Source: a virus
DNA: 28,062 nt
Virus record (IMG/VR): IMGVR_UViG_3300042306_000024
Location: 1-28,062 of that record
Reading direction: 5' to 3' (one strand)
In this document: positions 5,556-28,062 of the stretch, piece after piece
How the letters are laid out: each line of letters opens with the position of its first letter
How positions within the stretch are numbered: position 1 is the stretch's first letter
Notes under the pieces: model-generated
The model's input: only the letters and a program-made list of their open reading frames with translations
The model's database searches: none
Told to the model about the DNA's origin: nothing
Program-made: the position numbers and the translations under genes

Positions 5556-6101
5556 TTAAGCGTACTTGATAGGACCAGCACCAAGAACTGTGTAAGTTGC
5601 TGAGGCTGTTTTGATAATTGTAAATGAGTAAGCATCAATTGCTGAGGCGTTACCAGCAGCAGGGGCTGTGCCACCAGAGAATTTAACTGTCTGTGCAGAG
5701 CCATCAATAGTTAGAGCAGAATGTTTGTATGCTGTAGCACCATTGGTTACTAAGAATGCAACCGTAATTGCATCACCAGTAGCAAGAACGCTGTTTAATG
5801 TAGCACCTGAAGTGCCACGAACATTAAGTGTCCAGTCAGCAGAAGCATTAGATGTATAGTAAAGAACACCCTGAGTTGAAGCATCGAAGTTAATTGTTCC
5901 AGTTGCTGCAGTAGCAGATACTGTCATACGTTCTTCTGGTGCAATCAGTACTGGAGTAGTAAGGGTTGCTGCAGTTGAGGGTGCCTTAGTATCTACCTGT
6001 GTCTGTATAGCAGAGGTAACTCCATCTAAGTAGCCTAACTCTGTTGCAGATACAGTAGAAGGCGCAGGGGCTGCACTTGCTATATCTCTTGCTTTAGTCA
6101 T
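5556..6101 (-). CDS. small tail fibre / baseplate-type protein
   Basis: This 181-aa protein begins with a collar motif common in phage fibres (SATELGYLDGVTSAIQTQVD, residues about 19-38), which usually trimerises as a short coiled coil. A beta-rich domain at about 60-181 follows, ending in the pattern TIDGSAQTVKFSGGTAP then YSFTIIKTASATYTVLGAG, which recurs at the ends of tail-fibre proteins from aquatic phages. Its ATG overlaps the TGA of the upstream gene (ATGA). The poly-glycine gene follows 9 bases later, so this could be the shaft or connector for that adhesin. The partnership is inferred from gene order. Confidence 0.7.
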   Translation of the reverse strand: MTKARDIASAAPAPSTVSATELGYLDGVTSAIQTQVDTKAPSTAATLTTPVLIAPEERMTVSATAATGTINFDASTQGVLYYTSNASADWTLNVRGTSGATLNSVLATGDAITVAFLVTNGATAYKHSALTIDGSAQTVKFSGGTAPAAGNASAIDAYSFTIIKTASATYTVLGAGPIKYA

Positions 6102-6778
6102 TTGTATTCCTTTCGGGACCAGAACATTGACTTATATCGGTCAAAGAATTTAGTTTGTAATTTCTGTGTAATGCTATGTTGTTCTATTAGTTCTTTTTGA
6201 GAACCGATTTCCATTTTCCAATCCTCACGCTTAAAAGGAATTACCTGTGCTATAGGAGTTCCCTTTGGGATTAGACCTTCAAAGTTAGGGTCATTGATAA
6301 CCATAGGAAAATTAACTGGAGCACTATAGGTATCTGTATCTACAATTCCTGGAAGGATAGTAAAGACTGATTCCCTATGCATAGGCTGAGTAAACAATAC
6401 TGAATATCCTTTAGGTGTTTTAATAGCCCAAGGGTTCATCCATTTAGGATAAGCGTGTTGATTACGGGCTGGGTGTTCAGGAGCCTGTTCAACAGGATGA
6501 AATTGTACTAACCCTAAACTAGACCATTCAAAGAATTGTTTTTCTTCTTTAATGCTTACATATACATCAGCAGGTAAAGTAATAATATATCCAGAAACTA
6601 TAGCATCAAACACTGGCATACAACGTTTTATTGTTGCATCGGTATTTCCACCACCAGTAGGTTTTTTATTACCACCTATATAAGATTGCATATTCTTATA
6701 CCAATCTGGTATAAACTTAGAAGCAGGTTGTGGCTGTTCTATATCTATACCAGATGTATTACTGAATGTAATTTTCAT
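6098..6778 (-). CDS. conserved phage protein of unknown function (226 aa)
   Basis: I recognise the general look of this protein from genomes of aquatic phages but can assign no function. The N-terminal third carries ASKFIPDWYKNM, a Gly/Lys loop, then TIKRCMPVFDAIVSGYIITL; the middle has HPARNQHAYPKWMNPWAI and GYSVLFTQPMHR; the end of the fold is NFEGLIPKGTPIAQVIPFKR followed by a helical, basic tail. The GTPIAQVIPF strand recalls the jelly-roll of dUTPase/dCTP-deaminase proteins, but the catalytic motifs of those enzymes are absent, so this may only be a similar beta fold. It sits among fibre genes and overlaps the next by ATGA. It may modify or assemble the fibres, or simply be carried there. 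Confidence 0.68.
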   Translation of the reverse strand: MKITFSNTSGIDIEQPQPASKFIPDWYKNMQSYIGGNKKPTGGGNTDATIKRCMPVFDAIVSGYIITLPADVYVSIKEEKQFFEWSSLGLVQFHPVEQAPEHPARNQHAYPKWMNPWAIKTPKGYSVLFTQPMHRESVFTILPGIVDTDTYSAPVNFPMVINDPNFEGLIPKGTPIAQVIPFKREDWKMEIGSQKELIEQHSITQKLQTKFFDRYKSMFWSRKEYK

Positions 6779-8300: not shown

Positions 8301-10397
8301 TTAGTATGCACCCATTATGTTCATAATGGTGTTGTCGTTCTCGGTTGTTACTGTTGCGTATGCTGATAAATCTACCTGTGACCATTCAAGACCAGTAGCG
8401 GTAGATGAATTAGCCTTTAAGAAATATCCATTAGTTCCTAGTGTTAGTTTGCCAGGTGTATCAGCAGCAGTTGCTACTAGGATATCTCCCTTAGCATCAA
8501 AGAGTGTCTTATCAATAGCAGTTGCTAAATCAAAGGCTGTAAAGGTAATAATTTCTAGGATGTCTCCAGCGGTAAGGGCTGCAAGAGATGTAATACTTGT
8601 GCCGTCAGATGCTGTGTAATCAGATGTACGAGCAAGAAGAACACCATTAAGATAAACTTGTTCTTTTCCTGGAAGGTAAGAAAGCGTTACACCATTATCA
8701 TCTACGCCAGACTCTGATGTTTCTCCACCTGCTGCTGTAAAGCGATAGCGGAAGATTGCTGCAGTAGAGGAAATAGAACCCCAAGCAGAACCTGTCCAAG
8801 CAAACATAGTATTAGATACTGAGTTCCAATACAGAGCACCAGTTACCAATGCGTTGCCATCATTATCTACAGATGGGGCAGTTGACTTAGGTCCTAAATA
8901 TCTATCATCAAAAGAGTCGTATGAAGCAGCAGCAGCGGTTGCAGAGGCTGCAGCAGCAGTAGCAGAGCCAGCAACTGTATCTACGTACTGCTTAGTAGCA
9001 GCACCTAGGTTAACTGATGGGTCTGCACTAAGTACCAATGCACCTGTCATAGTAGAACCAGCCTTGAGCACCATAGCGTCAAAGACTGTACCACCTGCAG
9101 AAATTGCTGTTGCAATTTCACCAAGAGTATCAAGTGTTCCTGGGGCTGAGTTAACTAAATTTGCAACTGCTGTATCTACATAAGCCTTAGTTGAAGCATC
9201 GGTGTTTTGTGTAGGTGTAGCAAGGTTAGTAATCTTTTGGCTATTAGCAGATACTGAACCCGTAGGTGCAGCCATCTGGTCTAAGCGAGATGTTCTTACC
9301 TGTGTATCAAAGTCTGAGACTGTGGCTGCTAATTGAGTGCCAGTATGGTTAGCACGAGCATATGGGTCAGTAACCATCTTGGCTGCAGTAATAGTTCCAT
9401 TGGCAATATCTGTTGCTACAATAGTTCCATCTACTAAGTCAGCAGATGTAATAGTTCCACCAAGACTTAACTTGCTATAAGCAATACCAGCAGATGCGTT
9501 AATATCAGCATTGACGATTGTGCCATCTAAGATTTTAGCAGAAGTAACTGCTCCGTCTGCTAGGTCACCAGCAACGATAGTTGCATCTAGAATCTTAGCG
9601 GATGTAATAGCGCCATCAGCAATATCACCAGCGACAATAGTACCATCAGCAATCTTGGCTGAGGTGATTGCTCCATCAGCAATATCTCCTGCAACAATTG
9701 TTCCATCTGCTATCTTTGCGCTAGTAATTGCGGAATCTGCAATCTTGGTAGTTGTTACTGCATTAGATACAATCTTTGCTTCTGTGATAGATAGGTCATC
9801 AATTTTGGCTGTGCCTACGGCACCAGTTGCAATCTTTCCACTAGTAATAGCAGAGTCTGCAATATCTCCAGTTGCAATACCAAGGTCAGCAATCTTTGCA
9901 GATGTGATAGCACTATCAGCAATCTTTGCTGTGGTTACATTTAAGTCTGTGATTTTTGCGGTGGTTACAGAGTTTGCTTGAAGCATCGCTGTAGTAATCA
10001 TATTTGTATCTGTTGTCTCAAGGACATTAGCAATAGTTAAACCATGTGCTGTTGTGGTATTTTCAATATGTTCATTGGCTTCACGGAAGTCACGACCAAT
10101 GCCCATATGACGTACCTTGGCACCTGCTGAGTGAGCAATAGCCTGAGATGAATCAATACCACGAACAATTGTTAAAGTATTGCTAGCAGCAGCACTAGGG
10201 TAGACAACCTCTACAATTTCTTCAAGAGCCGTATCTGGATCGATAACAACTGTAAATGTCTGAGTGCCTGTAGGGGCAATAGAGGACATTAAGTTAGACG
10301 CAGAGTTGACTACCATTGTAGTAGCAGATGTGCTACCAGCCAATGATGATGTAAGTGTAGTCTCCTGCGAGATGGATGAGTACAGGCGAGTTGTCAT
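8301..10397 (-). CDS. tail fibre protein with decapeptide-repeat shaft
   Basis: This 698-aa protein has several parts. Residues 14-97 form an N-terminal beta domain, also recognisable in the upstream adaptor protein, ending RGIDSSQAIAHSAGAKVRH, and probably attach the fibre to the particle. A short helix follows (REANEHIENTTTAHGL). Residues 141-300 are sixteen uninterrupted ten-residue repeats; looser ones continue to about 345. Next come fibre collars TQNTDASTKAYVD and LGAATKQYVD, typical of trimeric phage fibres, and an Ala-rich helix. Near the end are QVYLNGVLLARTSDYTASDG and FDAKGDILVATAADTPGKL, both frequent in tail fibres. It starts right after the stop of the adaptor gene. It is the best candidate for the main host-range fibre. 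Confidence 0.85.
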   Translation of the reverse strand: MTTRLYSSISQETTLTSSLAGSTSATTMVVNSASNLMSSIAPTGTQTFTVVIDPDTALEEIVEVVYPSAAASNTLTIVRGIDSSQAIAHSAGAKVRHMGIGRDFREANEHIENTTTAHGLTIANVLETTDTNMITTAMLQANSVTTAKITDLNVTTAKIADSAITSAKIADLGIATGDIADSAITSGKIATGAVGTAKIDDLSITEAKIVSNAVTTTKIADSAITSAKIADGTIVAGDIADGAITSAKIADGTIVAGDIADGAITSAKILDATIVAGDLADGAVTSAKILDGTIVNADINASAGIAYSKLSLGGTITSADLVDGTIVATDIANGTITAAKMVTDPYARANHTGTQLAATVSDFDTQVRTSRLDQMAAPTGSVSANSQKITNLATPTQNTDASTKAYVDTAVANLVNSAPGTLDTLGEIATAISAGGTVFDAMVLKAGSTMTGALVLSADPSVNLGAATKQYVDTVAGSATAAAASATAAAASYDSFDDRYLGPKSTAPSVDNDGNALVTGALYWNSVSNTMFAWTGSAWGSISSTAAIFRYRFTAAGGETSESGVDDNGVTLSYLPGKEQVYLNGVLLARTSDYTASDGTSITSLAALTAGDILEIITFTAFDLATAIDKTLFDAKGDILVATAADTPGKLTLGTNGYFLKANSSTATGLEWSQVDLSAYATVTTENDNTIMNIMGAY
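9498..9977 (-). repeat. sixteen in-register 30-bp (ten-residue) repeats in the tail-fibre gene
   Basis: Residues 141-300 of the 698-aa fibre divide exactly into sixteen decamers with no insertion or deletion. The consensus is D-G/S-A/T-I-T/V-S/A-A/G-K/D-I-A, for example DSAITSAKIA, DGTIVAGDIA and DGAITSAKIA. In the centre the pair DGTIVAGDIA/DGAITSAKIA occurs twice in succession with identical protein sequence, though the DNA copies differ at wobble positions. Such periodicity points to a regular beta shaft and to growth by unequal recombination. Confidence 0.9.
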
Positions 10398-12199: not shown

Positions 12200-12471
12200 C
12201 CGCAGTTACAGTCCCATGCTCGAAGTGATTTATTGATTCTAGAGTTAGGATCTCTAGCAGTCTTAGCAGAAGTAAGTTTAGACTTCATTCCGCACATACG
12301 GCTACAGAAAGACTTACGTCTTGCAGCAGACTTAGGTGACTTCTTAGCCTCAGCCTTTTTTACAGGTGGCTTAAGATTCATACCTGCCGCTTTTGCAGAG
12401 GCTCTTCCCTTGGCGTTTAATCCGCCTTTAGGATTCTTGCCCTCTTTGCGAGTCCACGCTGGTGTCGCCAT
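12196..12471 (-). CDS. basic small phage protein with conserved WTRKEGKNP and RRKSFCxRM motifs
   Basis: I place the start at the ATG of MATPAWTRKEGKNPKGGLNA (91 aa) because GGAGGAAAG lies just upstream; a longer frame back to 12513 would bury that site. The protein has an N-terminal WTRKEGKNPKGGLNAKGRAS block, a Lys/Ala linker, then a block running RRKSFCSRMCGMKSKL, TARDPNSRINKSLRAWDCNC. Both blocks recur in small proteins of many environmental phages (I believe the DUF6321-type family). Four cysteines (C-x3-C and C-x-C) could bind a metal. The gene's first 44 bp overlap the 3' end of the glycosyltransferase gene, and its TGA overlaps the next ATG. Role unknown; the charge suggests nucleic-acid contact. 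Confidence 0.78.
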   Translation of the reverse strand: MATPAWTRKEGKNPKGGLNAKGRASAKAAGMNLKPPVKKAEAKKSPKSAARRKSFCSRMCGMKSKLTSAKTARDPNSRINKSLRAWDCNCG

Positions 12472-13156
12472 TTTTCTTTCCTCCAAATATTGCATTGTAG
12501 TAGTGAACATCAAATGAGAATCTCTTCATGTGTGGAGCCAAGGCTCCTGTATGACACCATAATGGAATCTTTACTTGATGACATATAGCAAAGAAGTAGA
12601 TATCTTCTCCTACGAAACTATCAGCCTTGCCCTGTTCGGCAAATAAGCGAATATCTCCCTTATCATCTCTAATCTTCTTGACTACGCTTCTGTGCATCAA
12701 GAGGAGTCCCATACCTGCTGCATCAACCTGGATTAGTTGATCTACTGGCATAGGGTGGATTCTCTTAGAGAATACTCTGCCACCTTCATCAGCAAACTTG
12801 AAGATAGTAGGCATTGGAATCATTAGAGGTTCCTCAGGATTATCTGAAGTAAAATAAACTCCAGTAATCATAGGCTTTGAGTACTTGTCTTTAACATTCC
12901 AAAGTTTCATAAATATCTCTGGATTGATTACTACATCTGAGTCTACCCATAGTAGCCACTCTGATTTATTAGAATCATACCAATGGTTGATTAACCGATC
13001 ACGCTGTCTAGCGATCTGATTACCACCACTACGGATAGTTGACTCAAACTTAATACCTGATTGAAGTAACACATCGGTTACCCCAAGCATAAACATGCCG
13101 TCTACGTTGCCGTTATCACACCATGCTAGCGATACTGTTTCTTGCTTTTGTCTCAT
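12428..13156 (-). CDS. GT-A-fold glycosyltransferase-like protein in the virion module
   Basis: This 242-aa protein resembles family-2-like GT-A glycosyltransferases. Visible are an N-terminal nucleotide-binding strand region, a positively charged helix (GGNQIARQRDRLINHW), the metal-binding DxD in EWLLWVDSDVVINPEIF (Asp72/Asp74), MITGVYF, an acceptor-loop region (QVDAAGMGLLLMHRSVV), GEDIYFFAI at about 183-191 (candidate base or second metal site), and a C-terminal His (HTGALAPHMKRF). No membrane segment or signal peptide is present. It lies among head-completion genes with a GGGG ribosome site. It could glycosylate a virion protein, or a host surface component or DNA base after infection. The donor and acceptor cannot be read from sequence. 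Confidence 0.8.
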   Translation of the reverse strand: MRQKQETVSLAWCDNGNVDGMFMLGVTDVLLQSGIKFESTIRSGGNQIARQRDRLINHWYDSNKSEWLLWVDSDVVINPEIFMKLWNVKDKYSKPMITGVYFTSDNPEEPLMIPMPTIFKFADEGGRVFSKRIHPMPVDQLIQVDAAGMGLLLMHRSVVKKIRDDKGDIRLFAEQGKADSFVGEDIYFFAICHQVKIPLWCHTGALAPHMKRFSFDVHYYNAIFGGKKNGDTSVDSQRGQES

Positions 13157-14354: not shown

Positions 14355-15335
14355 TTAAGCCGCTGGACGAACTGCTGATGCAGTCTGAATACGCCATAGA
14401 GCGTCTGGACGGTATAGGTTCCAACCTAATACTCCGTACCAGCCGATAGGGCGTAGACGCATCAACTTGTCGGTCACTGGACCAATTACAGTGTGTGGCT
14501 CTTCAGCAACAGCCTCTGCTAGTGCTTGTTGACCCATGATAAATGTGTCGTACACACGAGTTTGTGTTGTGCCTGAACCTGCGCCTGCTTGTGAGTTAGG
14601 TAGACGTGGAGACTCGATGAAAGCAACGCCTTCAAAAGTTCCAATCTCGCCTGCGTAAATGCCTGCTGGGTTTACGTACTCTGCAGGTTGACGCCATGAA
14701 GCAGTTCCTGTTTCTGCACGAAGATCGTGTGAAACTTCTGGGTGGATGTATGAAGCAAATAGGCTTCCACGACGTGGAACTACGTTTGCTGCACGCATCT
14801 TCGCTACTACGTAGCGGATGTCTTTTGCCTTCAAGGTATCTGTTGCAGATACACCTGTTACGGCAGCAGTTGAGATTGCTCCAGCGATTTCGCGGATAAC
14901 TTTTGTGCCACCTGCAAGAACTCCCTTGATAACTTCATCAAGAGAATCGTTCAAGTTGTAAGCAACAATGTTAGCAAGTGCTGGCTCTACATCTGCAAGT
15001 GAGAATAAATCTAACTTACGTGTTGAGATGATTGAGTTACCGTACTCGTTTAGAGTTACAGCAACAGTTGTTGTAGCAGGTACTGCTACTGCATCTACGT
15101 CAACTGTTTCAGTTAGTGTAGATGTCTTTACTGCCAAATCGTTGTAGATCTGGAATAGCACGCTTGAACCAGCGTGTGTTTGTGATACGGGCTTCTTATC
15201 AGCAACTTGACGGAATGATGGTACGGAACGAAGAGCAAACTCTACGAGACGATCATACGCCTGTGTTACAAGGTTAGCGCCGACCACTGTGCCTGCTTGC
15301 CCTGAAGGCAATGCAGCAGCGGTAAATAATGACAT
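14355..15335 (-). CDS. major capsid protein, N4-gp56-like (HK97 fold)
   Basis: This 326-aa protein forms the phage head shell. The N-terminus (SLFTAAALPSGQAGTVVGAN) leads into a helix (QAYDRLVEFALRSVPSF), then the pattern of N4-gp56-type capsid proteins: SSVLFQIYNDLAV, TTVAVTLNEYGNSIISTRKL, AYNLNDSLDEVIKGVL, DIRYVVAKMRAANV. Later comes ASYIHPEVSHDLRAETGTA followed by SWRQPAEYVNPAGIYAGEIG and FEGVAFIESPRL, the most recognisable block of the family. The length is close to that of small members. The scaffold gene precedes it by 32 bases with AAAGG before the ATG, and the strong hairpin follows. No separate decoration domain is visible. Confidence 0.93.
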   Translation of the reverse strand: MSLFTAAALPSGQAGTVVGANLVTQAYDRLVEFALRSVPSFRQVADKKPVSQTHAGSSVLFQIYNDLAVKTSTLTETVDVDAVAVPATTTVAVTLNEYGNSIISTRKLDLFSLADVEPALANIVAYNLNDSLDEVIKGVLAGGTKVIREIAGAISTAAVTGVSATDTLKAKDIRYVVAKMRAANVVPRRGSLFASYIHPEVSHDLRAETGTASWRQPAEYVNPAGIYAGEIGTFEGVAFIESPRLPNSQAGAGSGTTQTRVYDTFIMGQQALAEAVAEEPHTVIGPVTDKLMRLRPIGWYGVLGWNLYRPDALWRIQTASAVRPAA

Positions 15336-15367: not shown

Positions 15368-15853
15368 CTACGATTGTGAACCGTAGATTAGGTTTAGAAT
15401 ATCTTCGGCAGATTGAGCAGATTGGATTTTAATACCCATATCCTCAGCCTTGTCGGGGGATAAAGCCCCTGTTGTTACATTGTCCATTTGACGAATAGAC
15501 GCTACATCTCGAGAATCTACTTCTTTCTTAGGTTGTACTTGAACACCGAATATTTCAGCGTTCTGTTCCAACCAAGATGAAATTGCTTCTTCCGAAGCAT
15601 CTAGATCACTTGGAACGAAAGCGGCAACTTTTGGGTTTACGCCACGGGATGCAAATACATCCTTCAAAACCCGCTCTCTTTGGGATTTACTGAGTTCACC
15701 TAAAGTGGACTCCAGATCCTTGTTTCTCTTTTGCTCGACCTTTAAGGCCTTGCGTAGTTTCTTTACAAGGTCTGTATCTGAATCAAATGTTGCCATATTG
15801 ACATCATCATCTTCTTCATCTTCATCCCAGTAGTTATCGCGGTTGTTGCTCAT
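15368..15853 (-). CDS. capsid scaffolding protein
   Basis: At 161 aa from the chosen start, the protein is acidic at first (NYWDEDEEDDDVNMATFD), then forms a long charged helix likely to be coiled coil (TDLVKKLRKALKVEQKRNKD onward to about residue 70). A C-terminal acidic/helical part follows with ASEEAISSWLEQNAEIFG and SAQSAEDILNLIYG. That architecture and the position immediately before the capsid gene are those of phage scaffold proteins. I start at MSNNRDNYW because GGGAGAAG lies just upstream; in-frame ATGs at 15892 and 15907 could add 13 or 18 residues. It would be removed from the prohead, possibly by the HslV-like hydrolase at 24667-25236. Confidence 0.82.
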   Translation of the reverse strand: MSNNRDNYWDEDEEDDDVNMATFDSDTDLVKKLRKALKVEQKRNKDLESTLGELSKSQRERVLKDVFASRGVNPKVAAFVPSDLDASEEAISSWLEQNAEIFGVQVQPKKEVDSRDVASIRQMDNVTTGALSPDKAEDMGIKIQSAQSAEDILNLIYGSQS

Positions 15854-15973
15854 AGCAACTTCTCCCTTGTTAGTAGTTGGCGTACGCCTCATTAAAGATA
15901 GGGGCATCTATAATGGCTCGTACTATCGGTTTTATACACCGCATGGACCGATGGCTCCATGTCGGGAATCTAG
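15854..15973 (-). promoter_or_regulatory. structured leader upstream of the scaffold and capsid genes
   Basis: This is the longest non-coding stretch in the window. On the minus strand it holds, in order, a hairpin with 6-bp stem CATGGA/TCCATG (15942-15961), a hairpin CGGT/ACCG (15927-15941), the perfect palindrome GGCGTACGCC (15879-15888), and the scaffold ribosome site. A TATAAA lies in the second hairpin loop, but I see no convincing -35 box 17 bases upstream, so a standard promoter is not supported. A phage-specific promoter, an operator or an RNA-level control element remains possible. Confidence 0.4.
15892..15960 (-). CDS. possible 22-aa leader peptide before scaffold
   Basis: A short frame MEPSVHAVYKTDSTSHYRCP-YL lies in the leader. 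Its TAA shares a base with an in-frame upstream ATG of the scaffold (TAATG), the same junction style as in most of the operon. No ribosome site precedes it, and its first codons lie inside a hairpin stem. It may be a translated leader that modulates scaffold synthesis, or chance. Confidence 0.2.
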   Translation of the reverse strand: MEPSVHAVYKTDSTSHYRCPYL

Positions 15974-18430: not shown

Positions 18431-21400
18431 TTATTCCTCTACCTTCAGTAATGAAGCAAACACTCCGTAGTACATACGGGAGAATGCTGGATTTTGTACC
18501 ATTAATCTTGTGGCTAAATCGTTTAGATTTTTAGCCTGCTCTTTCGCATACCAGAATCCAGCACCTATGTTAGGTGTAGCACTGGTTCTGACTTCCTGCA
18601 AATACTTCTCCGCAGATTTATAAGCATTATAAAATTCTACTGTTTCTTTATAGACAGGAGATTTTTCAAATGCTGGTTCGGCTAATGCTTTTTCAACACC
18701 AGCAATTTTATCTCTAGCAGATCCAATATCTGTTGATAGTACAGGAGCAGATCCACCGAATTGATTATTTAATTCAATTACCTTTTCTGTGTACCAAATA
18801 TCGCTATATCCAAGAGTTGCTTGTTCTTCAGAAATCTGAGACTTAGCCATTTGGTATACAACGTTTTCAGCATATTGCTCTAACTCTTCAGGGCGTAGTA
18901 TACGGCGACGGCCTGTAGCCTTCTGCCAATTATAGTAAGCAGTTGCTGCTTCTCCGCCAGGGAAGAAGTAAGGAACGATATCGCCAGTTCTAGTAGCATA
19001 CTTATCCGCCATATCTGGATTCTCATTTAAGAATGACCAAGCATCTCCAGTACCACGAACTGATCTTGTAGAACCACCTAGGATAACTAAAATGTTTTTG
19101 ATTCCAAATGTATCAGAGAACTCGCCTACAGCCTTGAAGTAATCTCCAGGGTGCTTCTTCATTATCTGATCGTATGCACTATACAATGCTGTTTGAGTGC
19201 GTAGTTTACCTTCTTTGTCCTTAGCAAATACCTCTTGAGAAGGAGTTGCTGGAGCAATAGACTGGAAGAATGCTGTCATCAAGCCAGTCCAACGAGATAT
19301 ACCACGAGCATCGTTAAACAACTGGTTTCTTTCAGTATCATTGGCTAATGGATTGTCACCATAATCACCAGTAGATGCTAAGTATGAAGCCCAGTCTTTT
19401 ACGCCACGTTCTACTTGAGTACCATTGTTAACAGCAAGTAAGAATGATTTCTTTAACCATGCTGGAAGGAAGAAATCTTCAATTCCACTTGGCTCACCAA
19501 ACGGAAATATAATTTGACGCATAGCATCCCATTCAGGACCAAATGCTTTAGACTTTCCAGTTGCTGCATAAGCAATCTGACCTACGGGACCAATACCAGG
19601 AATTGCTGGATTGACTGCACCAAATACAAGGTTCAGAGATTGAACTGGGGCAGTAATCTGAAGTGCCTGAGCAGTATCAATGTTCTTTCCAGCCATGGCT
19701 CCAATTATGCTTCCTGCTAATGGATAGCGGAAACGAGTCTCACCAAATTCATCTTTGTAAAAGAATCCTTGATTCTCTTCATATTTAGTTCCAGTTAGAT
19801 CATAGATAGCACTAGATCCTTCTTGGGTCAATGCGTTGTAGGCACGACCAATCTTGTAGAACTGTACAGGATTATCTTTAAATAATTGAGCCCACTTGTA
19901 CATGGTATTGAACTGTGCTTGTGCAAAGGGAAATAAGAAACGTATTGAGTTAGCGTATTGACGTTGCCTAGCAGCATCATAGAACAAATCTTTAGTATAG
20001 GCAGAAGCCTTCTTAGCAGCCATTGAGTTCATAGTATCTAAATCAATACCATCATCTACTGACTTACCCTTTTTACGAGCCGCTATTTCTTTATTAATAG
20101 CACGCAAAGATGGGTGACGACGCATACTTATATTACGGCCATTGATAGTTAGTGGCGCTAATGACTTCTTGGCGTTTACCAAAAGTGCATCTAGGGCATC
20201 ATCATTAACCATGCCTACATAACGACCTACATGGTCCCAGTATGACATACGAAACTCAGGTGCAAAGTTAACTACGTTTTCAATTTTAGTAGCACCATCA
20301 AAGAACCAGTTTACTGCTGTGTCTAAATACTTTGTATCTTGTGGGCCAAATCGCTTATCACGAACATGGATAACAGTAGATCCAGTCATATCTTCTTTAG
20401 GGAAGTTACGACCTATAAGGGATTTAAATGCTCCATCTTCATCAGCAAAGTCATTTATATTTCCAACAGTCTTGTATCTAGGTATCTTTATTTTGACACC
20501 ATTCTGGATAACTTCACCATCAGAAAGCAATTTACGGATAGCCACAGATCCAGGACCAGTACCTGCAACATTGTCAATATAGCGGGCTACAGAACCAGTA
20601 GATGTTTTATCAAATAAGTATGATTTAACATTCTCAGGTATCATGTTTTCTGCGCTCAAGTTGTACTTGCCGTTTACCTTTTTTGGATCTCTTAAAAATA
20701 TCTTTGCAAACTCTGCTGTCTCAACGCCATTACGGCCACCATTAACTAGGTTTTCTAAAACTCCAGCAAACTTCTCGCCTTTACCTTCAATAAGTAAACG
20801 TACTACATCATCTTGTGCTTCTTCTGCGGTGTTTGCTACAATAGGAATAAGAGCATCTGAGTGAGCACGGATCAATGTATTGGCTAAACCAACGTGGTAC
20901 TTACTGCTATCTGTTCCAATAGCCTCGTAGATTTTACCTACAAATGCAAATCTAGGATCTCCAGAGTTATGATTACGGGCTAGGAAATTAAAATTTTCTT
21001 CCACGAATGCTGATATGGATTGATTTAACTCAGCATCTTTACCTACTAGACTATTGCCTTTAACATCATTAGAATATTTAGACATTTTGGCCAGTAACTG
21101 TTTTGCTGCTCCGCCATTAGGATTTCCTGCCATCATAGCGATATAGTTAAATGGATGATTTAATAAAGATTCATGTCCTGAAAAGTACTGACGAAATTGC
21201 ATTTCGCCAACGTTTCGTGCAATATAAGCAATACGAAATGCTAGTTGAGCCGTTCTCCAACGGTCACCAATCTCAGTATTAAATACATCTAATGACTGTT
21301 TAGCACCATACTTAATCTTACTATTGTTATATTTTCTAATTAATTTAGAAATATCTCTAGTATCAGGAAGTCTTACCACATCATCTAAGAATTGGTATTC

Positions 21401-24226
21401 GAATATAGCCTGATCTGGTGAAAAGAAATGAGTTTCTCCATTAAGTAAATTTAAAGAAGGCATCTCACCTTTAGCAAGACGTTCTGGTGTATATTGCTTA
21501 ATGACAGCATTCTCACGGCCAGTAGCACGGAAGGCTTCACGAACTGCATCTTCTACTGCAGTATCTCCTGGAGCAAGGCGTTTAGCCAATGCTACTTGAG
21601 CATTCTCGATTTCCTGGAATACAATACCTGAACGTTGTTGTAAAGTAGTAGCAGATGTAATTCTATTAATTGTTGCATCAATGATTTCATCAGGAATCTT
21701 GGCAGAAGACATCCAGTCTTCCATTCCATTTACAAGTCTATCTAGGTCATCCAATGGTAAAACTACAGATTGGGTAAAGTAACGACCAAAGTTCTTTTCA
21801 ACTTTTTCCACATAGTTAATTGCCTTATAGGCAAGAGGTGGTACAGTCTTAAATAATGGATTCTTAGCGGCTAATGCTGCTTCACCTTTGAGGGCAAGAG
21901 AGCGATAGATCTTAGGATCTGATGTAGGTGCTGCTAGATGCTTTAAGAATATAGATATAACTTCATCACCAGTTGTAGCAGCAACTAATTCTTGTGTCAT
22001 TTCAACATCTAATTTACGACCAAATAGTCTATGTAGACGAGAGAATTCTTTTTCGTTTGCTACGATATCAGCAATCTGCGCAAAGCGAGGACCTAATAAG
22101 TATCCTGCAGCCTTATCAACGTCACCCTTGACTGCTCCACCAAAGCCATCAATAAGCCCTACTTCGCCTCTATAAAACTCTTTTAAGTATTGCTTATCAG
22201 CAATTTCCATTTCAAGACCCATCAGTTTAGCAATACCGATGTTCTCAGGATCATTTAATAACTGAGCAACTAATTCAGGATCTTGCGCTGCATAGTCACG
22301 CAGAATATCAATCTCTTTAATCTTTCCATCAATACCAGCACTAGCAGCCTTGGCTGAATCAAACGCTGTTTTAGAATCTAAAATTTCTTGTTGAGCAGAT
22401 TTAACTGCTCCTACCAACTTAGCACCTAGTTCTGTACCCATAGCAGCAGTACCTTGTAGGGATGTAAGAACATCGCTTATACCTACTTGACGTGCTCCTA
22501 TTTTAGAAGCGTTGGTAATTACTACTCCACCAGTACCACCGTGAATTCCACGGATGTTTACGTATCCATCAAACTTCCAAGTATCAGTAAGGGCTTGAGA
22601 TACTGCGTTAATTAAACCTTCGTCTTTAGTCTTGACTGCAAAAGATACTAATTCAGCAACGTTTTGTCCACCATTACCAAAGATTAGATCGTCTGAAGTA
22701 TACTTCCATAGGTTTGCACCAGTATCATTATTGTTAATGTAATTATATATAGCATCTTTAGTAGCCTCAGGAAGGTTAGGATCCTCAGCAAATCCGTATA
22801 ACTTGCCAAAAAACTCTTCACGACGACCTAGTTCAGCAAGTTTTTCATCTGCTGTAGCATTATCGTAGGTCTTTGTAATATCAAATAATTCTAATGGGTT
22901 ATCTTTAGATACAGTAGTAACGTATTCACGCTCACCGAATGCACCTAGTCTTAACTGTCCAGGAGTTGGAACATCATCCATGTAGATACCAGTAAACATT
23001 TCGCCAGTATTCTTATGGTCAGCAGACAACTGAGCAAGGTTATCAATTACACCTTCAGGCTTATTGTCGCCAATGTTCTTTAATAAGAAATCGCCGATCT
23101 TGCCATTCTCAATAAGGGCTGCAACATCTGCATTTCCCTCTACTTGATCTCCACGCTTAATACCATAATTAAGAGCCTTCTCTAACTTAGTTGCTACAGC
23201 AACGCTCTTAGCCTGTGTCTTCTTTGCTAAATCTTTTTCAGCCTTCATGTAGGTATTATCTACAGTACGACGAATTTTTTTCTCAGCACCAATACGTTCT
23301 TTAATAAGTGCTTTTTCTTCTTTGGTTAAATTCTTAACATCGTCTATCTTTGCAAGACGCTTTGCTTCTTCTACCGCTTGAGCAGCAGCCTTAGCACCCT
23401 GTAATTGCTTTCCACCTTGAATAATCTTTGTAATAGAACCAGGACCAAGCCATAAAGAAGGATCTGTACCAACGGCTAATACGCCATCTACGATACCTGA
23501 CATTACTCGATAAGGAGTACCGTTTGGATCTGCTCCTAATGAACTTAGGCTAGCACGACCAATAGTAAATGATTTACCATTAACACGGCCATAAGCAGAC
23601 ATAGCCTTAGCCTGTGCTGCTCCTACCTTACTTTCAGGAGATACGAAGAAACCAGAACCAGTATCAACTGGACCTTTATTAGTAACTACGCCAGCAGTAG
23701 ATCTTAATAATTGACCAAGATTAGTTGTCTCACCAAATAGATTTGCTGGAGAAGCAGCAATAATTGGAGAAAGTATATTTTTTTCACCTTGAGCAGCAGC
23801 ATACATGTTTCTGCCAACATTAGTTACATATTGGTAAGGTGCTTGAAGCGTAGCAAATGCAGCACGAGTGGTACCTTTTAATAATCCGTAGATACCTTCA
23901 CGAAAACCTTTATCTTTATCTGCTTGACTCTTAATGTTTTCAACATTAGTCAAATCCTGCATTAACTGAGCAAAGCCATCTGCACTTGATAACTTTTCAA
24001 TACCCTGGCTGTTAGCATTTAAGCCTACTTTAGCAGCACTAATTAAATAATCTTTTGATTGATTAGGAAACTTCTTTATAAGAGAATCAAGATTCATAAT
24101 TGTATCTGGGGTTAATCCAGATATTTGTTGGTCTACAAGTTGACCTATGTTTGCTTGAACCTTATCTTGATCGAAAAGACTCGTATACTTGTATTTACTC
24201 CAGTAGTTTACTAAAGGACTGGACAT
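18431..24226 (-). CDS. giant (1931-aa) internal virion/ejection protein candidate
   Basis: This is by far the largest gene here. It is predominantly helical. Near the N-terminus are Ala/Tyr-rich amphipathic segments (LLKGTTRAAFATLQAPYQYV) that may touch membranes. A Lys/Ala/Glu coiled-coil-like region covers about 275-345 (AQAVEEAKRLAKIDDVKNLT). A long mixed region follows. Near residue 1430 lies a run of aromatic residues, RFLFPFAQAQFNTMYKWAQL, the type of segment found in large phage ejection proteins. I searched for T7-type RNA polymerase motifs and transglycosylase or peptidase signatures by eye and found none. In order and size it parallels the largest ejection proteins of T7- or N4-like phages, but a MuF-type or tail-associated giant protein remains possible. 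Confidence 0.6.
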   Translation of the reverse strand: MSSPLVNYWSKYKYTSLFDQDKVQANIGQLVDQQISGLTPDTIMNLDSLIKKFPNQSKDYLISAAKVGLNANSQGIEKLSSADGFAQLMQDLTNVENIKSQADKDKGFREGIYGLLKGTTRAAFATLQAPYQYVTNVGRNMYAAAQGEKNILSPIIAASPANLFGETTNLGQLLRSTAGVVTNKGPVDTGSGFFVSPESKVGAAQAKAMSAYGRVNGKSFTIGRASLSSLGADPNGTPYRVMSGIVDGVLAVGTDPSLWLGPGSITKIIQGGKQLQGAKAAAQAVEEAKRLAKIDDVKNLTKEEKALIKERIGAEKKIRRTVDNTYMKAEKDLAKKTQAKSVAVATKLEKALNYGIKRGDQVEGNADVAALIENGKIGDFLLKNIGDNKPEGVIDNLAQLSADHKNTGEMFTGIYMDDVPTPGQLRLGAFGEREYVTTVSKDNPLELFDITKTYDNATADEKLAELGRREEFFGKLYGFAEDPNLPEATKDAIYNYINNNDTGANLWKYTSDDLIFGNGGQNVAELVSFAVKTKDEGLINAVSQALTDTWKFDGYVNIRGIHGGTGGVVITNASKIGARQVGISDVLTSLQGTAAMGTELGAKLVGAVKSAQQEILDSKTAFDSAKAASAGIDGKIKEIDILRDYAAQDPELVAQLLNDPENIGIAKLMGLEMEIADKQYLKEFYRGEVGLIDGFGGAVKGDVDKAAGYLLGPRFAQIADIVANEKEFSRLHRLFGRKLDVEMTQELVAATTGDEVISIFLKHLAAPTSDPKIYRSLALKGEAALAAKNPLFKTVPPLAYKAINYVEKVEKNFGRYFTQSVVLPLDDLDRLVNGMEDWMSSAKIPDEIIDATINRITSATTLQQRSGIVFQEIENAQVALAKRLAPGDTAVEDAVREAFRATGRENAVIKQYTPERLAKGEMPSLNLLNGETHFFSPDQAIFEYQFLDDVVRLPDTRDISKLIRKYNNSKIKYGAKQSLDVFNTEIGDRWRTAQLAFRIAYIARNVGEMQFRQYFSGHESLLNHPFNYIAMMAGNPNGGAAKQLLAKMSKYSNDVKGNSLVGKDAELNQSISAFVEENFNFLARNHNSGDPRFAFVGKIYEAIGTDSSKYHVGLANTLIRAHSDALIPIVANTAEEAQDDVVRLLIEGKGEKFAGVLENLVNGGRNGVETAEFAKIFLRDPKKVNGKYNLSAENMIPENVKSYLFDKTSTGSVARYIDNVAGTGPGSVAIRKLLSDGEVIQNGVKIKIPRYKTVGNINDFADEDGAFKSLIGRNFPKEDMTGSTVIHVRDKRFGPQDTKYLDTAVNWFFDGATKIENVVNFAPEFRMSYWDHVGRYVGMVNDDALDALLVNAKKSLAPLTINGRNISMRRHPSLRAINKEIAARKKGKSVDDGIDLDTMNSMAAKKASAYTKDLFYDAARQRQYANSIRFLFPFAQAQFNTMYKWAQLFKDNPVQFYKIGRAYNALTQEGSSAIYDLTGTKYEENQGFFYKDEFGETRFRYPLAGSIIGAMAGKNIDTAQALQITAPVQSLNLVFGAVNPAIPGIGPVGQIAYAATGKSKAFGPEWDAMRQIIFPFGEPSGIEDFFLPAWLKKSFLLAVNNGTQVERGVKDWASYLASTGDYGDNPLANDTERNQLFNDARGISRWTGLMTAFFQSIAPATPSQEVFAKDKEGKLRTQTALYSAYDQIMKKHPGDYFKAVGEFSDTFGIKNILVILGGSTRSVRGTGDAWSFLNENPDMADKYATRTGDIVPYFFPGGEAATAYYNWQKATGRRRILRPEELEQYAENVVYQMAKSQISEEQATLGYSDIWYTEKVIELNNQFGGSAPVLSTDIGSARDKIAGVEKALAEPAFEKSPVYKETVEFYNAYKSAEKYLQEVRTSATPNIGAGFWYAKEQAKNLNDLATRLMVQNPAFSRMYYGVFASLLKVEE

Positions 24227-24654
24227 TAACGACCTTCTTGAAGAAATGCTTCTAGTAACCTACGGTTCTGAGGTGTTGGGTTAACAGCAAACATAGCACG
24301 GGCTAAGAGTGCAGCATTATCAGGAGCATCAACTGGTTGTTGTAGTACTTCAGGTCCAGCACCTGGTGTATTTCCACCAGCACCGTCTGTAATAGGTCCA
24401 CCATCACCTTGTAATTCTCTAACAGGTGTAGGACGTACGCCAGTGGCTATAGTATTAACAGGAGAAGGGTTAACAATTGTGCTAGGTTGTACTGTGGATG
24501 CACCTGATGCAATATCTTGCAACTGTGTAGCCTGTCCGTAGGTGCCACCTGTAGCGTTTTGAATCTTTGCTTCTCTTTGAATTTTCTTTACACGAGATAA
24601 GTCTTCACGCTTTGCAAATTTTCCTGGACCAGACACTGGTGAGATCATTGACAT
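24226..24654 (-). CDS. disordered small protein between protease-like and giant gene
   Basis: This 142-aa protein begins MSMISPVSGPGKFAKREDLS with a short basic helix (RVKKIQREAKIQNATGG). It then has a Gln/Thr/Pro/Gly-rich region that looks disordered (TIVNPSPVNTIATGVRPTPV, GGPITDGAGGNTPGAGP) and a C-terminal helix (NAALLARAMFAVNPTPQNRR, LLEAFLQEGR). Small proteins with SGPGKF-x-K-R near the start occur beside portal genes of other phages, in my recollection, without known function. It overlaps the giant gene by one base (TAATG). The helix-disorder-helix pattern would suit an adaptor or chaperone for the portal or ejection proteins; this is a guess. Confidence 0.66.
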   Translation of the reverse strand: MSMISPVSGPGKFAKREDLSRVKKIQREAKIQNATGGTYGQATQLQDIASGASTVQPSTIVNPSPVNTIATGVRPTPVRELQGDGGPITDGAGGNTPGAGPEVLQQPVDAPDNAALLARAMFAVNPTPQNRRLLEAFLQEGR

Positions 24655-24666
24655 TGTTTAATATCC

Positions 24667-25236
24667 TTATCTTGCGAACTGTTTTTTAATAATGACTGGG
24701 CCGTTTGAATAAACATCCCACTTAATTGAAGTGTTAATAGACTTTTCTATAATTTCTGCTGCCTGTTCCGCTGTTCTGGCCTTATCTGCGCCAAGAACTT
24801 CCATAGCACCTAGTGCTGTATGTCCTCCGCTACCTGAATAGTAGACTTTAGTAGATGTTCTATCCCAAGAATAATCAGAAAAGATTGGATATATGACACC
24901 ATTGGCTACAACAATGAACTCTGAATCGTGAGATGCAGCCTGTCCATCTTCTTTCATGTCATAACCAGCATCTAAGAATAGTTTTCTCATAGAAGGTATG
25001 AACTTTGTAGTCATAAACTTATCTAAATCTTCGTTTAATTTAAATCTAGGTGGCTTCCAACCAAATTGTAGGAGGTTAGAACCACGAGAAGCACCTGCTC
25101 CTGCTATAAGATAACTACCATTTTGGATTATCTTAGGAGTAATCATAGTCATTGGCTTACCATGATCGTCAGTTGATCGTGAATCGCAACCAACAACAGC
25201 CCAACCATTACCTTGAATTGCTGCTAGTGTTGTCAT
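24667..25236 (-). CDS. HslV/proteasome-beta-like Ntn hydrolase (putative prohead protease)
   Basis: This 189-aa protein follows the HslV/proteasome-beta pattern. After Met removal it starts Thr1-Thr2, as E. coli HslV does. NG at 9-10 and Asp17 (VVGCDSR) fall at HslV positions, and Lys34 is one off the catalytic Lys33. YLIAGAGA, VVANGVIYP and YSGSGGHTALGAMEVL correspond to HslV's core strands and its SGSGG-x-x-A loop; TAEQAAEIIEKSI and DVYSNGP match the final helix and strand. It is slightly longer than HslV (about 175 aa) and has no propeptide beyond the Met. It lies between portal and head genes, the usual place of prohead proteases. No HslU or proteasome ATPase is in the window. A role in scaffold cleavage is inferred. 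Confidence 0.85.
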   Translation of the reverse strand: MTTLAAIQGNGWAVVGCDSRSTDDHGKPMTMITPKIIQNGSYLIAGAGASRGSNLLQFGWKPPRFKLNEDLDKFMTTKFIPSMRKLFLDAGYDMKEDGQAASHDSEFIVVANGVIYPIFSDYSWDRTSTKVYYSGSGGHTALGAMEVLGADKARTAEQAAEIIEKSINTSIKWDVYSNGPVIIKKQFAR

Positions 25237-25250
25237 TGTCCCCTACTTAG

Positions 25251-27014
25251 TTATTGTTGTCCTTGTAATCCTGCCAATATACTCATTAAATCTTCTCCAC
25301 CTTGTTGTGGGGTTCCACCAGAAGCGGGTCCAGGAGTGGCTGGGGACAGGGGAGCCTGCTCTGCTGGGGCTTGTGAACCTGGTGGAACCGTTCCTGCCTG
25401 CGCTTGAGCCATCGCTTCTTCCTGCGGAGTAGGTGCAGGTGGCGTGAATACGGCTAGCGCAGCATTTTCTATGCTTTCCCCATTTCGTGTGCGTGTGATA
25501 ACATCAGCGATATTCTTAATCATCGCAGATGGATCTTGACCTTGTGCTGCCATAGCAGGAATTGCTTGCGCAGTTGATGTTATAGCGGCGGTCAAGTTAG
25601 CACGCATCTTTTCAATTTCAATTCGTTGTCCTTCTAGAGTTACGTTTACGCTCCATGGAAGTTCACGACGTATGAAGTCTTTAGATACTAGATCAGCACC
25701 AAGTGCTTGTAGTGAGAAGATTAGGGCTCGTGATGGGTCAAGTCCTGCCATCAATCCGTAACGAACTTCAATAGAAGTGTCGTTCTTGATGTCTTTGCTA
25801 GGTATGTACTTTAACTCGTACGGAGTACCCTGAGCGACGCCTCTAACCGATTTCTCTACATCAAACACCACCTGGTCAACTTCAAAGCAAGCCTGAACGA
25901 CTTCTTCGAAAGTTTCTGCCAGGATGGTTTGTCCAGCCTTGATTTGTGAATCAAAGGCACCTAATAGAGCCTGTACACCTTGGCCAGTAATAACACTAGC
26001 GTTAATGTTTCCAGTTCTACCTTCAGGATAACGAGCACCTAATCGCATTTCGCTTTGAAGTGCTGCTTGCTCTTGGAAGGCTGCAGCAGGAATGTCAAGT
26101 TTGACACGACCAACTGCATTAGGTTGGTTGGTGCGAATAATCGCATCAGGACCCATAGGCAAATCTACAACATCAGTAGGAACAACCATAGGAGCCTGAA
26201 TAGACTTCTCTGCTGCTTCCATACTTAGGTTAGCAAAACGTGCTCTTGCTAACTGTACATACAATACATCGTCAAATTGTCCACGAGGTTCTTCATCGAT
26301 ACCAGGTTTACGAGCAACGTATACCAGCATTTTGCCTAGTGGATTCTTTGCTGCATTTAATACTAAGTTACCACGGCTAGGTACATAAAGAACGATATTG
26401 TTCTTGTCTGTATAGCGGATAAGTTCTACAACTGCATTAGTATTCTGGTTATATCCAAGGTTTCCAAGGATAGCACCAGCATACTCAGGATAATCTGTGG
26501 CTAGTTCGCCAATTGTCTTCATGTATCGCTTTGCGTATGATACGCAGCGACCAAATCTATCAAACTCTGGATATGCTCCAATAGGATCTTCTACACGGAT
26601 ACGTGGAAGTTGTGATTCAAAATCTAATTCAATATGGATAGGTAAGAAGCCATATGTAAAGTACCAGTCAGCACCCCAGTACATCTGTGACTGTAGGCGT
26701 GAATTGTAAATATAGTTATTGGCAATCATGCCACGCTTGTCAGCAAATGCTCTAGCACGATCTGAGGATGTGTTAGTTGTCGAACAGTTAAAGGATGGTA
26801 GTGGAGCCAGTACCTCTGCAAGGTCACGGGCTGCAACATCTACGAAGTTGGCAACCATCGCTGAGTTCATTCCTTCTGGGAACAAGTCAGGGAATACCTC
26901 AGTCATCTTACCTTTACGTACAGCAAGTATGTCTGCCATACGGGCATCACGCTCTGCGTGTCGTTGTTTTAGATTCTCGACACGTTGAGAGATTAACTGA
27001 ATATCAATTGCCAT
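25251..27014 (-). CDS. portal protein
   Basis: This 587-aa protein forms the dodecameric ring at the head vertex through which DNA passes. The N-terminal helix (RVENLKQRHAERDARMADIL) leads to MNSAMVANFVDVAARDLAEV, then YWGADWYFTYGFLPIHIEL and VEDPIGAYPEFDRFGRCVSY, typical of the clip/wing region of portals. Later come TGQGVQALLGAFDSQIKAGQ and AETFEEVVQACFEVDQVVF (stem/wing helices), and a helical crown part (GQRIEIEKMRANLTAAITST). The C-terminal 70 residues are Pro/Gln/Gly-rich and disordered. It starts 7 bases after the terminase stop and is followed by the HslV-like gene after 14 bases. Identification rests on pattern and context. Confidence 0.88.
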   Translation of the reverse strand: MAIDIQLISQRVENLKQRHAERDARMADILAVRKGKMTEVFPDLFPEGMNSAMVANFVDVAARDLAEVLAPLPSFNCSTTNTSSDRARAFADKRGMIANNYIYNSRLQSQMYWGADWYFTYGFLPIHIELDFESQLPRIRVEDPIGAYPEFDRFGRCVSYAKRYMKTIGELATDYPEYAGAILGNLGYNQNTNAVVELIRYTDKNNIVLYVPSRGNLVLNAAKNPLGKMLVYVARKPGIDEEPRGQFDDVLYVQLARARFANLSMEAAEKSIQAPMVVPTDVVDLPMGPDAIIRTNQPNAVGRVKLDIPAAAFQEQAALQSEMRLGARYPEGRTGNINASVITGQGVQALLGAFDSQIKAGQTILAETFEEVVQACFEVDQVVFDVEKSVRGVAQGTPYELKYIPSKDIKNDTSIEVRYGLMAGLDPSRALIFSLQALGADLVSKDFIRRELPWSVNVTLEGQRIEIEKMRANLTAAITSTAQAIPAMAAQGQDPSAMIKNIADVITRTRNGESIENAALAVFTPPAPTPQEEAMAQAQAGTVPPGSQAPAEQAPLSPATPGPASGGTPQQGGEDLMSILAGLQGQQ

Positions 27015-27021
27015 TAGTTTC

Positions 27022-28062
27022 CTATTCGTACATAGACATCTCGTAATCGTTTACATTTACAGTAAAGCGATTATCGATCTGCTTGCGAGTTGCCCATTTA
27101 TTAGTAATGTGGGTTTGATTGATTTTACCATTATTGATAATTTCTCTTGCTCTTAGTTCACAGAACCATAGAGCCATAACACAGTCTGTAGGTCCTTTAG
27201 TATCAGGCTTCCAAGTTATTAACTGTTGGATCAAAGCCTTGATTCCTTCAGATCCATCCTGGGATGGTATCTCTATCAAGTTATTATCTTGGTGTAGATT
27301 ATTGCGCATAGTGCCAAATAGGCCAGACATGGCTGCTACACCGAAAGAAGTGTCCCACTTGTTCTTACCAGTGAATTGGCTTGAGAACCGAATGCCTCGA
27401 GAGGCTAGGTATGAGTTTAGATCTGCGTCTAGGGCGTAAGCCTTCTGATGCGCATTGGTCTCAATTCTTAGTTCTTGAGGTTGGTACTTAGTAGACCAGT
27501 CCTCAATCAACTCCTGTATCTTTTGTGGAGTTGGATCTTTCATGTTTTCAACATCTAATATATAACGCTTACGTGTCATACGATCTACAGTCATTACAAC
27601 TGCAGCGGTTCTTCCACTCATCGCTGGGTCTAGGCCCATGATAGTGTAGTAAGCACCTGCTTCTTTAGGATGGCCGGCAGCGCCAGGTTTTAGCGGACCC
27701 CTCTTTCGCATCCTGTTGACTGAGCCTTGTACACATCCAGGGGAAAAAATAGAATCTTCTTGTACGTCCTGCTGCTGATATACCAACGCCCAGGCAGAGG
27801 CCGAGACTTCACTTCTACGACGGAATAACGCTGGCCCGTCCCATTTCGGGTATAGCCCATTTTCATCAGGTAGTACCTCTTCCTCAGAACCTTCCCATGG
27901 TATATGGGACTTAGGCCAAAGAGTAACCCATTTTTCAGGATCCTCATCAAACTCTAATACAGCAGGACAGTTCATATATGTGAATGGTGTCTTGCCACTT
28001 GACCAATGGTCAGGGTTACGGATCTCTCGATAGAGATCATTGGATGCAATTCTAGTCCCCAC
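27022..28062 (-). CDS. terL: terminase large subunit, C-terminal part (5' end outside window)
   Basis: The frame is open at the window edge, so only the last 346 residues are seen; the apparent GTG start is an internal Val codon. It begins in the ATPase coupling region (GTRIASNDLYREI, the G-T-R-x-x-x-x-D-L-Y pattern). It continues into the RNase H-like nuclease with acidic residues at D145 in MGLDPAMSG, E201 in RIETN and D293 in GPTDCVMAL (fragment numbering), the three metal-binding sites of headful or cos nucleases. The ATPase Walker motifs would be upstream. It ends 7 bases before the portal gene. The protein pumps DNA into the prohead and cuts it. Confidence 0.93.
   Translation of the reverse strand: MGTRIASNDLYREIRNPDHWSSGKTPFTYMNCPAVLEFDEDPEKWVTLWPKSHIPWEGSEEEVLPDENGLYPKWDGPALFRRRSEVSASAWALVYQQQDVQEDSIFSPGCVQGSVNRMRKRGPLKPGAAGHPKEAGAYYTIMGLDPAMSGRTAAVVMTVDRMTRKRYILDVENMKDPTPQKIQELIEDWSTKYQPQELRIETNAHQKAYALDADLNSYLASRGIRFSSQFTGKNKWDTSFGVAAMSGLFGTMRNNLHQDNNLIEIPSQDGSEGIKALIQQLITWKPDTKGPTDCVMALWFCELRAREIINNGKINQTHITNKWATRKQIDNRFTVNVNDYEMSMYE

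Follow-up and report, generated by a model that had tools for sequence, protein, structure and literature searches.

A proteasome-like threonine peptidase, probably accessory, in an exchangeable slot after the portal gene of a podovirus likely to infect Actinobacteria

Phage proteins resembling HslV are already catalogued, both in PHROGs and in phage annotations, and published (PMC8665760, PMC7823757). Among the closest described systems is BPH, which forms closed double rings with an acidic pore loop and has no known unfoldase; the purified protein was inert in the published assays (PMC5777263). Fuchs, Alva, and Lupas named in 2021 AAH and PPH, which are proteasome homologues of phages and bacteria, AAH being commonest in Actinobacteria (PMC8665760). 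A member of the 'peptidase HslV family' is annotated among the host-lysis genes of E. coli phages (PMC11841896). A Clp-type protease, not HslV, gave one peptide in a virion proteome (PMC5259590), and the word HslV does not occur in the main text of the paper on phage DSL-LC01 (PMC10611076). The literature searched yielded no functional test of any HslV-like or proteasome-like protein from a phage. What is new in the present work is the census of one such gene and the exchange of the slot in which it lies.

The window, that is, the whole stretch of DNA analysed, is a fragment record of 28,062 bp, whereas its 13 long relatives span 37–41 kb; it is from these similar lengths that we call them long or near-complete. 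The hydrolase ORF begins with an ATG codon, encodes 189 residues and is a genuine gene. It starts 14 nt past the portal stop, and 12 nt separate its end from the next gene, homologues of which occupy the equivalent place in relatives. The features needed for the discussion are the following.

24667..25236, minus strand: proteasome/HslV-like Ntn hydrolase, with predicted Thr1 once Met is removed, Asp17 and Lys34 (profile, model and alignment)
25251..27014, minus strand: portal protein, upstream edge of the exchangeable slot (phrog_104)
24226..24654, minus strand: 142-aa Pro/Gly-rich protein, downstream edge of the slot (weak phrog_8200)
18431..24226, minus strand: 1931-aa, highly variable protein, whose size and position make a virion or ejection role probable
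15368..15907, minus strand: likely scaffold (phrog_7813; weak phrog_648, head scaffolding); its homologues fit an inner start at 15853
14355..15335, minus strand: major capsid protein (Phage_capsid_3, phrog_1357)
27022..28062, minus strand: terminase large subunit, truncated by the window edge

Predicted promoters (6 vs 7.6 expected) and terminators (4 vs 2.7 expected) gave no signal around the hydrolase gene, and no tRNA was found in the window. Elsewhere in the window, positions 12428–13156, between head and tail genes, encode a 242-aa protein with no Pfam match, which, judging from a motif, has a glycosyltransferase-like look. Positions 6098–6778, among the tail genes, give a weak DUF6065 match below the cut-off, and 8301–10397 encode a likely tail fibre with numerous 'ADGTIVAGDIADGAITSAKI'-type repeats.

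The residues that the original prediction had read from the sequence (Thr1, Thr2, Asn9-Gly10, Asp17, Lys34 and the SGSGGHTA loop) are correct in numbering without Met. The lysine sits at 34, not at 33, owing to a one-residue insert, and the NG at 9–10 is no family feature, as most of 24 alignment rows have DG or EG there. The assignment to the Ntn hydrolases also holds, on the strength of a proteasome-like AlphaFold model, a PHROG 1040 profile match and an intact Thr/Asp/Lys site. Residues 1–185 match PHROG 1040, 'peptidase HslV family', with an E value of 2.1e-20, well above what chance would give, and the same family is matched by 39/39 aligned relatives at 0.001. The Pfam Proteasome family gave 22.2 bits for the window protein, slightly below the cut-off of 22.4, and was matched by 37 of the 39 relatives at E ≤ 1. 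With the window protein alone as phmmer query, no proteasome chain was among the PDB matches; a profile of the 39 relatives retrieved BPH at 3.3e-11 and HslV at 6.3e-11.

Structure prediction followed by structural search, proposed originally as a check, pointed to an Ntn hydrolase resembling the proteasome and HslV. The AlphaFold model (pLDDT 90, pTM 0.88) has BPH as its top Foldseek rank. VIA-align gave BPH a Z of 20.7 over 173 residues with an rmsd of 2.4, the further rows shown being nearly all 20S chains at 19.0–20.5; as scores lie within 1 of each other, BPH and several 20S beta chains are tied for the top. A viral structure library also holds similar models, several of them labelled HslV or proteasome. 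The model has helices at 50–58, 71–89, 138–147 and 156–173 and a last strand at 181–187. The features by which Fuchs et al. define group I of the proteasome-like Ntn hydrolases (PMC8665760) were all found: Thr1 (their definition allows Thr1 or Ser1), Asp17, Lys (33 in their definition, 34 here) and Gly47, a beta-sheet core with H1–H4, and neither a propeptide nor a C-terminal H5.

Conservation in homologues, on which the catalytic assignment had been made to depend, is complete: no substitution of Thr1, Asp17, Lys34 or the oxyanion glycine (Gly47, or Gly48 counting Met) occurs in the 177 full-length sequences among the matches listed. These are the window and 176 viral loci; four incomplete sequences and one with an early stop were left out of the 181 distinct ones. 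In the 39-row alignment, 13 of the 189 columns are invariant, these four residues included. The gene evolves under purifying selection, as judged from codon comparison among the matches listed (median dN/dS 0.15 over 2236 non-independent pairs). The loop at 90–105 has a net charge of −5 to −1, with a mean of −3.5, in the 177 sequences among the matches listed. In one of the 181 distinct loci among the matches listed (L203:1002), the hydrolase frame has an early stop (53 codons), owing either to an error or to decay. As connectase shows that a ligase can have the same fold (PMC8665760), the window protein might be a protein ligase of that sort, or some other Ntn hydrolase that is degenerate or no peptidase; nevertheless, no helical insertion separates the early strands of the model and the catalytic residues are invariant in the 177 sequences listed, and we regard this explanation as extremely unlikely. 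No cellular relatives appeared in two pattern-based scans of genome contigs and one plasmid search, in which phage queries can easily miss such relatives; the query was the Pitbull protein in the plasmid search and in the second contig scan.

The gene occupies a slot whose content changes between related phages. Hydrolases of two types, A and B, are found in it. The loci L097 and L169 have portals 94% identical in residues, and 91.5% over 1700 portal bases, vs hydrolases only 30% identical; their likeness in DNA ends near the portal end and restarts just within the homologue of the 142-aa protein. When the state of the slot (type A, type B, no hydrolase or the Streptomyces arrangement) is mapped by parsimony on a tree of 92 portals, it changes 11 times. 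The tree is a single quick one, from 213 portals thinned at 95% within each state, with 33 of its 89 inner branches weak; its well-supported branches force at least 7 changes for type A, 5 for type B and 2 for none. Slot content nevertheless clusters on the tree, with 11 changes vs a shuffled mean of 35.9, and portals at least 90% identical have hydrolases with a median identity of 93% (608 pairs among the matches listed). Therefore, we think that the exchange is occasional.

How often the slot holds a hydrolase was estimated from the best 80 matches to the L097 portal. Eleven were dropped for scant downstream DNA, six of them with a partial hydrolase, and in the remaining 69 loci the hydrolase is present in 57, two of these placed by coordinates after failing the distance cut-off, and absent from 12. 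The 12 hydrolase-free loci, which have at least two origins on the portal tree, carry a 73–79-aa gene instead and no hydrolase elsewhere in the record, 11 of the 12 records being short pieces. This small gene (L255:6786-7013 and homologues) has an acidic tail and occupies the slot in 12/12 of these loci; a model built from the same 12 found it near none of 166 hydrolase loci among the matches listed.

The matches listed comprise 221 loci, 181 of them called distinct, with near-identical strains remaining. Of 178 among them, 170 have the portal upstream of the hydrolase, upstream meaning that its last aligned residue is at most 1200 nt away; these loci were found through the hydrolase, so that its frequency in this set means nothing. 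The other 8 of the 178 have no match to a window-type portal upstream, and their neighbours look non-structural by eye. In DSL-LC01, D'Alembert and the Arthrobacter phage Pitbull, where it is gene 77, the hydrolase gene is also distant from the annotated head genes. In L213:248-1609 a type B hydrolase adjoins a probable endolysin, which by eye resembles the window's CHAP protein, in a 4.2-kb contig with no portal match. An 84-aa ORF (L145:8531-8785 and homologues) often lies 3' of the hydrolase, commonly with a 4-nt overlap. It is present at 86 of the 166 testable hydrolase loci among the matches listed (48/103 of type A and 38/63 of type B) and at 0/12 hydrolase-free loci, and one copy of it matched nothing in Pfam or PHROG beyond chance level.

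The hydrolase was originally proposed as a head-maturation protease, digesting scaffold or trimming capsid protein within the prohead. It does adjoin the portal in most relatives, and so strong a conservation of place makes some connection with late or virion genes likely. Moreover, another candidate protease is scarce in the 19 records searched: a ClpP-type match was found in none, and S78 passed the cut-off only in W03 and was weak in G013. These negatives are themselves weak, because neither family picked up the head protease annotated in D'Alembert (W04). That phage has a member of the hydrolase family plus a separate annotated head maturation protease, which speaks against the proposal, and DSL-LC01 has the family together with an S78 match. 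The same can be said of G014, a record of 37 kb without hydrolase whose head proteins are close to those of two hydrolase-bearing phages. Portal, scaffold and capsid of G014 are 85%, 82% and 87% identical to those of G008 (type A), 87%, 75% and 77% to those of G026 (type B), and 87%, 68% and 72% to those of ct2KA10 (type B), the hydrolases of G008 and G026 being 35% identical. Besides, capsid N-termini are short and similar whether or not the hydrolase is present.

A more distant comparison points the same way. Of the 31 records found with the portal as query, 29 come from Streptomyces phages, several of which are included twice, and their portals are about 41% identical. None of the 29 was among the 34 records in which tblastn found the hydrolase at E 0.01. 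A profile search gave the same absence in 7/7 tested Streptomyces records, while recovering 5/5 positive records. The role in head maturation or scaffold clearing was thus not borne out, given the slot swaps, the lack of the gene in G014 and the copies of other phages that lie away from head genes; we consider it very unlikely. Because phages with closely similar heads swap or lack the hydrolase, we think that it is an accessory and not a head-building protease, and probably not the essential head protease. For the window itself some distance has to be allowed. All three tree rows of its clade have a type A hydrolase, the portal, scaffold and capsid of the window share no more than 57%, 44% and 55% of residues with those of G014, and no close relative of the window without hydrolase was seen, the hydrolase-free loci being all distant. 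Dispensability is seen in a sister group, and for the window we infer it.

Processing of a different late-operon virion protein, for example the very large downstream one, would agree with the tight packing of the hydrolase between the portal and later virion genes, and the large protein is variable too. Yet hydrolase-free phages also carry a large protein, and similarity of the hydrolase correlates weakly with that of the large protein (Spearman 0.21), a test of low power because the large protein is so mosaic that the median pair has no match. We judge such processing to be quite improbable. As to the protein at 18431–24226 itself, the median pair among phages with similar portals gives no BLAST match.

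HslV and the proteasome beta subunits invite the question of a partner ATPase. The original claim that the phage has no unfoldase stands as far as the records reach: PF07724 (AAA_2, the ClpX/HslU type) matched 0/19 records, of which the window is a fragment and the relatives are perhaps incomplete, vs 14/14 control genomes, and the two AAA proteins tested are DnaB-like helicases. PF00004 matches 15 of the 19 records, among them 12 of the 13 long relatives (G001–G012, not G013), ct2KA10 and D'Alembert. The podovirus protein that gives this match, of about 260–270 aa, was considered as an unfoldase that the window phage might encode in the third of its genome beyond the window, and rejected, as DnaB_C/AAA_25 helicase domains are present in the two scanned; the remaining 11 resemble those two by eye. 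In DSL-LC01 an AAA_5 protein, presumably MoxR-like, lies about 10 kb from the hydrolase. Thus, the podoviruses seem to be without an unfoldase of their own, in records that are possibly incomplete.

The unfoldase, HslU included, could instead come from the host. WhiB-like genes were found in 13/13 long relatives, ct2KA10, RosePharie and DSL-LC01, are absent from the window fragment, and occur in one of 14 control genomes, from Corynebacterium; together with the kinship to Streptomyces phages, they make actinobacterial hosts likely. Such hosts often have Mpa. The hydrolase may then borrow and redirect a host AAA+ unfoldase (ClpX, ClpC or Mpa) as a true HslV-like core, which would fit the resemblance of its fold and active site to HslV and 20S beta, the lack of any phage unfoldase found and the likely hosts. 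The acidic loop, on the contrary, is as in BPH, for which no partner is known, and we see this borrowing as unlikely, if by no means far-fetched.

In our opinion, the window protein is probably an accessory BPH-like threonine peptidase of group I, on the HslV/BPH/AAH side, with its gene inside the head module of a podovirus probably infecting Actinobacteria. We favour a self-assembling accessory peptidase because it is like BPH in its predicted fold, its Thr exposed after Met, its conserved acidic loop and the apparent absence of an ATPase encoded by the phage. The hydrolase would be expressed together with the late genes, and the host methionine aminopeptidase would uncover Thr1. Subunits may then form a closed double ring that encloses the active sites, as in BPH, and the conserved acidic loop, residues ~90–105, may gate or select substrates. 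During infection the peptidase would cut particular unfolded or flexible proteins of host or phage, needing no phage ATPase and perhaps no ATPase whatever. As purified BPH was inert in assays, a cofactor need or a narrow specificity is possible for the phage hydrolase too. A bolder reading, which we offer tentatively and as a minority possibility, is that freshwater actinophages reserve the slot after the portal for two deeply diverged proteasome-like ring peptidases, often accompanied by the overlapping 84-aa gene, which trade places or yield to a small unrelated gene, as an ATPase-free phage proteasome whose turnover is driven by the host. If true, such a proteasome might, for example, counter host defence or help to take over the host. 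In any case, the census weakens the head-protease guess and directs attention to host targets, and a common group of lake phages with two forms or none beside similar heads is a natural comparison.

It remains to set the protein beside the known systems. PHROG 1040 matches the window protein and all 39 relatives, and its library gives a name and the category 'other', with nothing on slot exchange. HslV and the window protein share the Thr/Asp/Lys site, the GSGG loop and the C-terminal helix and strand; however, the NCBIfam HslV model gives the window protein 16.6 bits, far below its cut-off of 157.75, and HslVU has HslU, whereas no HslU-like gene was found in the 19 records here. HslV without HslU had already been remarked in the jumbo phage pSal-SNUABM-04, although that is a large enterobacterial phage in which the ORF is described as HslV protease alone (PMC7823757). 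With AAH and PPH the window protein shares the compact group I layout, the lack of a propeptide and the occurrence in phages, but PPH has about 140 residues and no helix H2, whereas the window protein has 189 residues and a helix at 71–89 (PMC8665760). Fuchs et al. in 2021 found no Actinobacteria-specific phage bearing AAH (PMC8665760), whereas the hydrolase group here looks actinobacterial, so that this lake-phage group supplies likely actinobacterial phages with the hydrolase family. BPH (5ovs, 5ovt and 5ovu; PMC5777263) is the best match of the window protein in fold, tied with several 20S beta chains, and of the profile of its relatives. The acidic pore loop of BPH appears to be shared by the hydrolase family, if the loop at 90–105 is equated with it from its place after H2. 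The two proteins are only about 18% identical, and the one described here is encoded by a phage.
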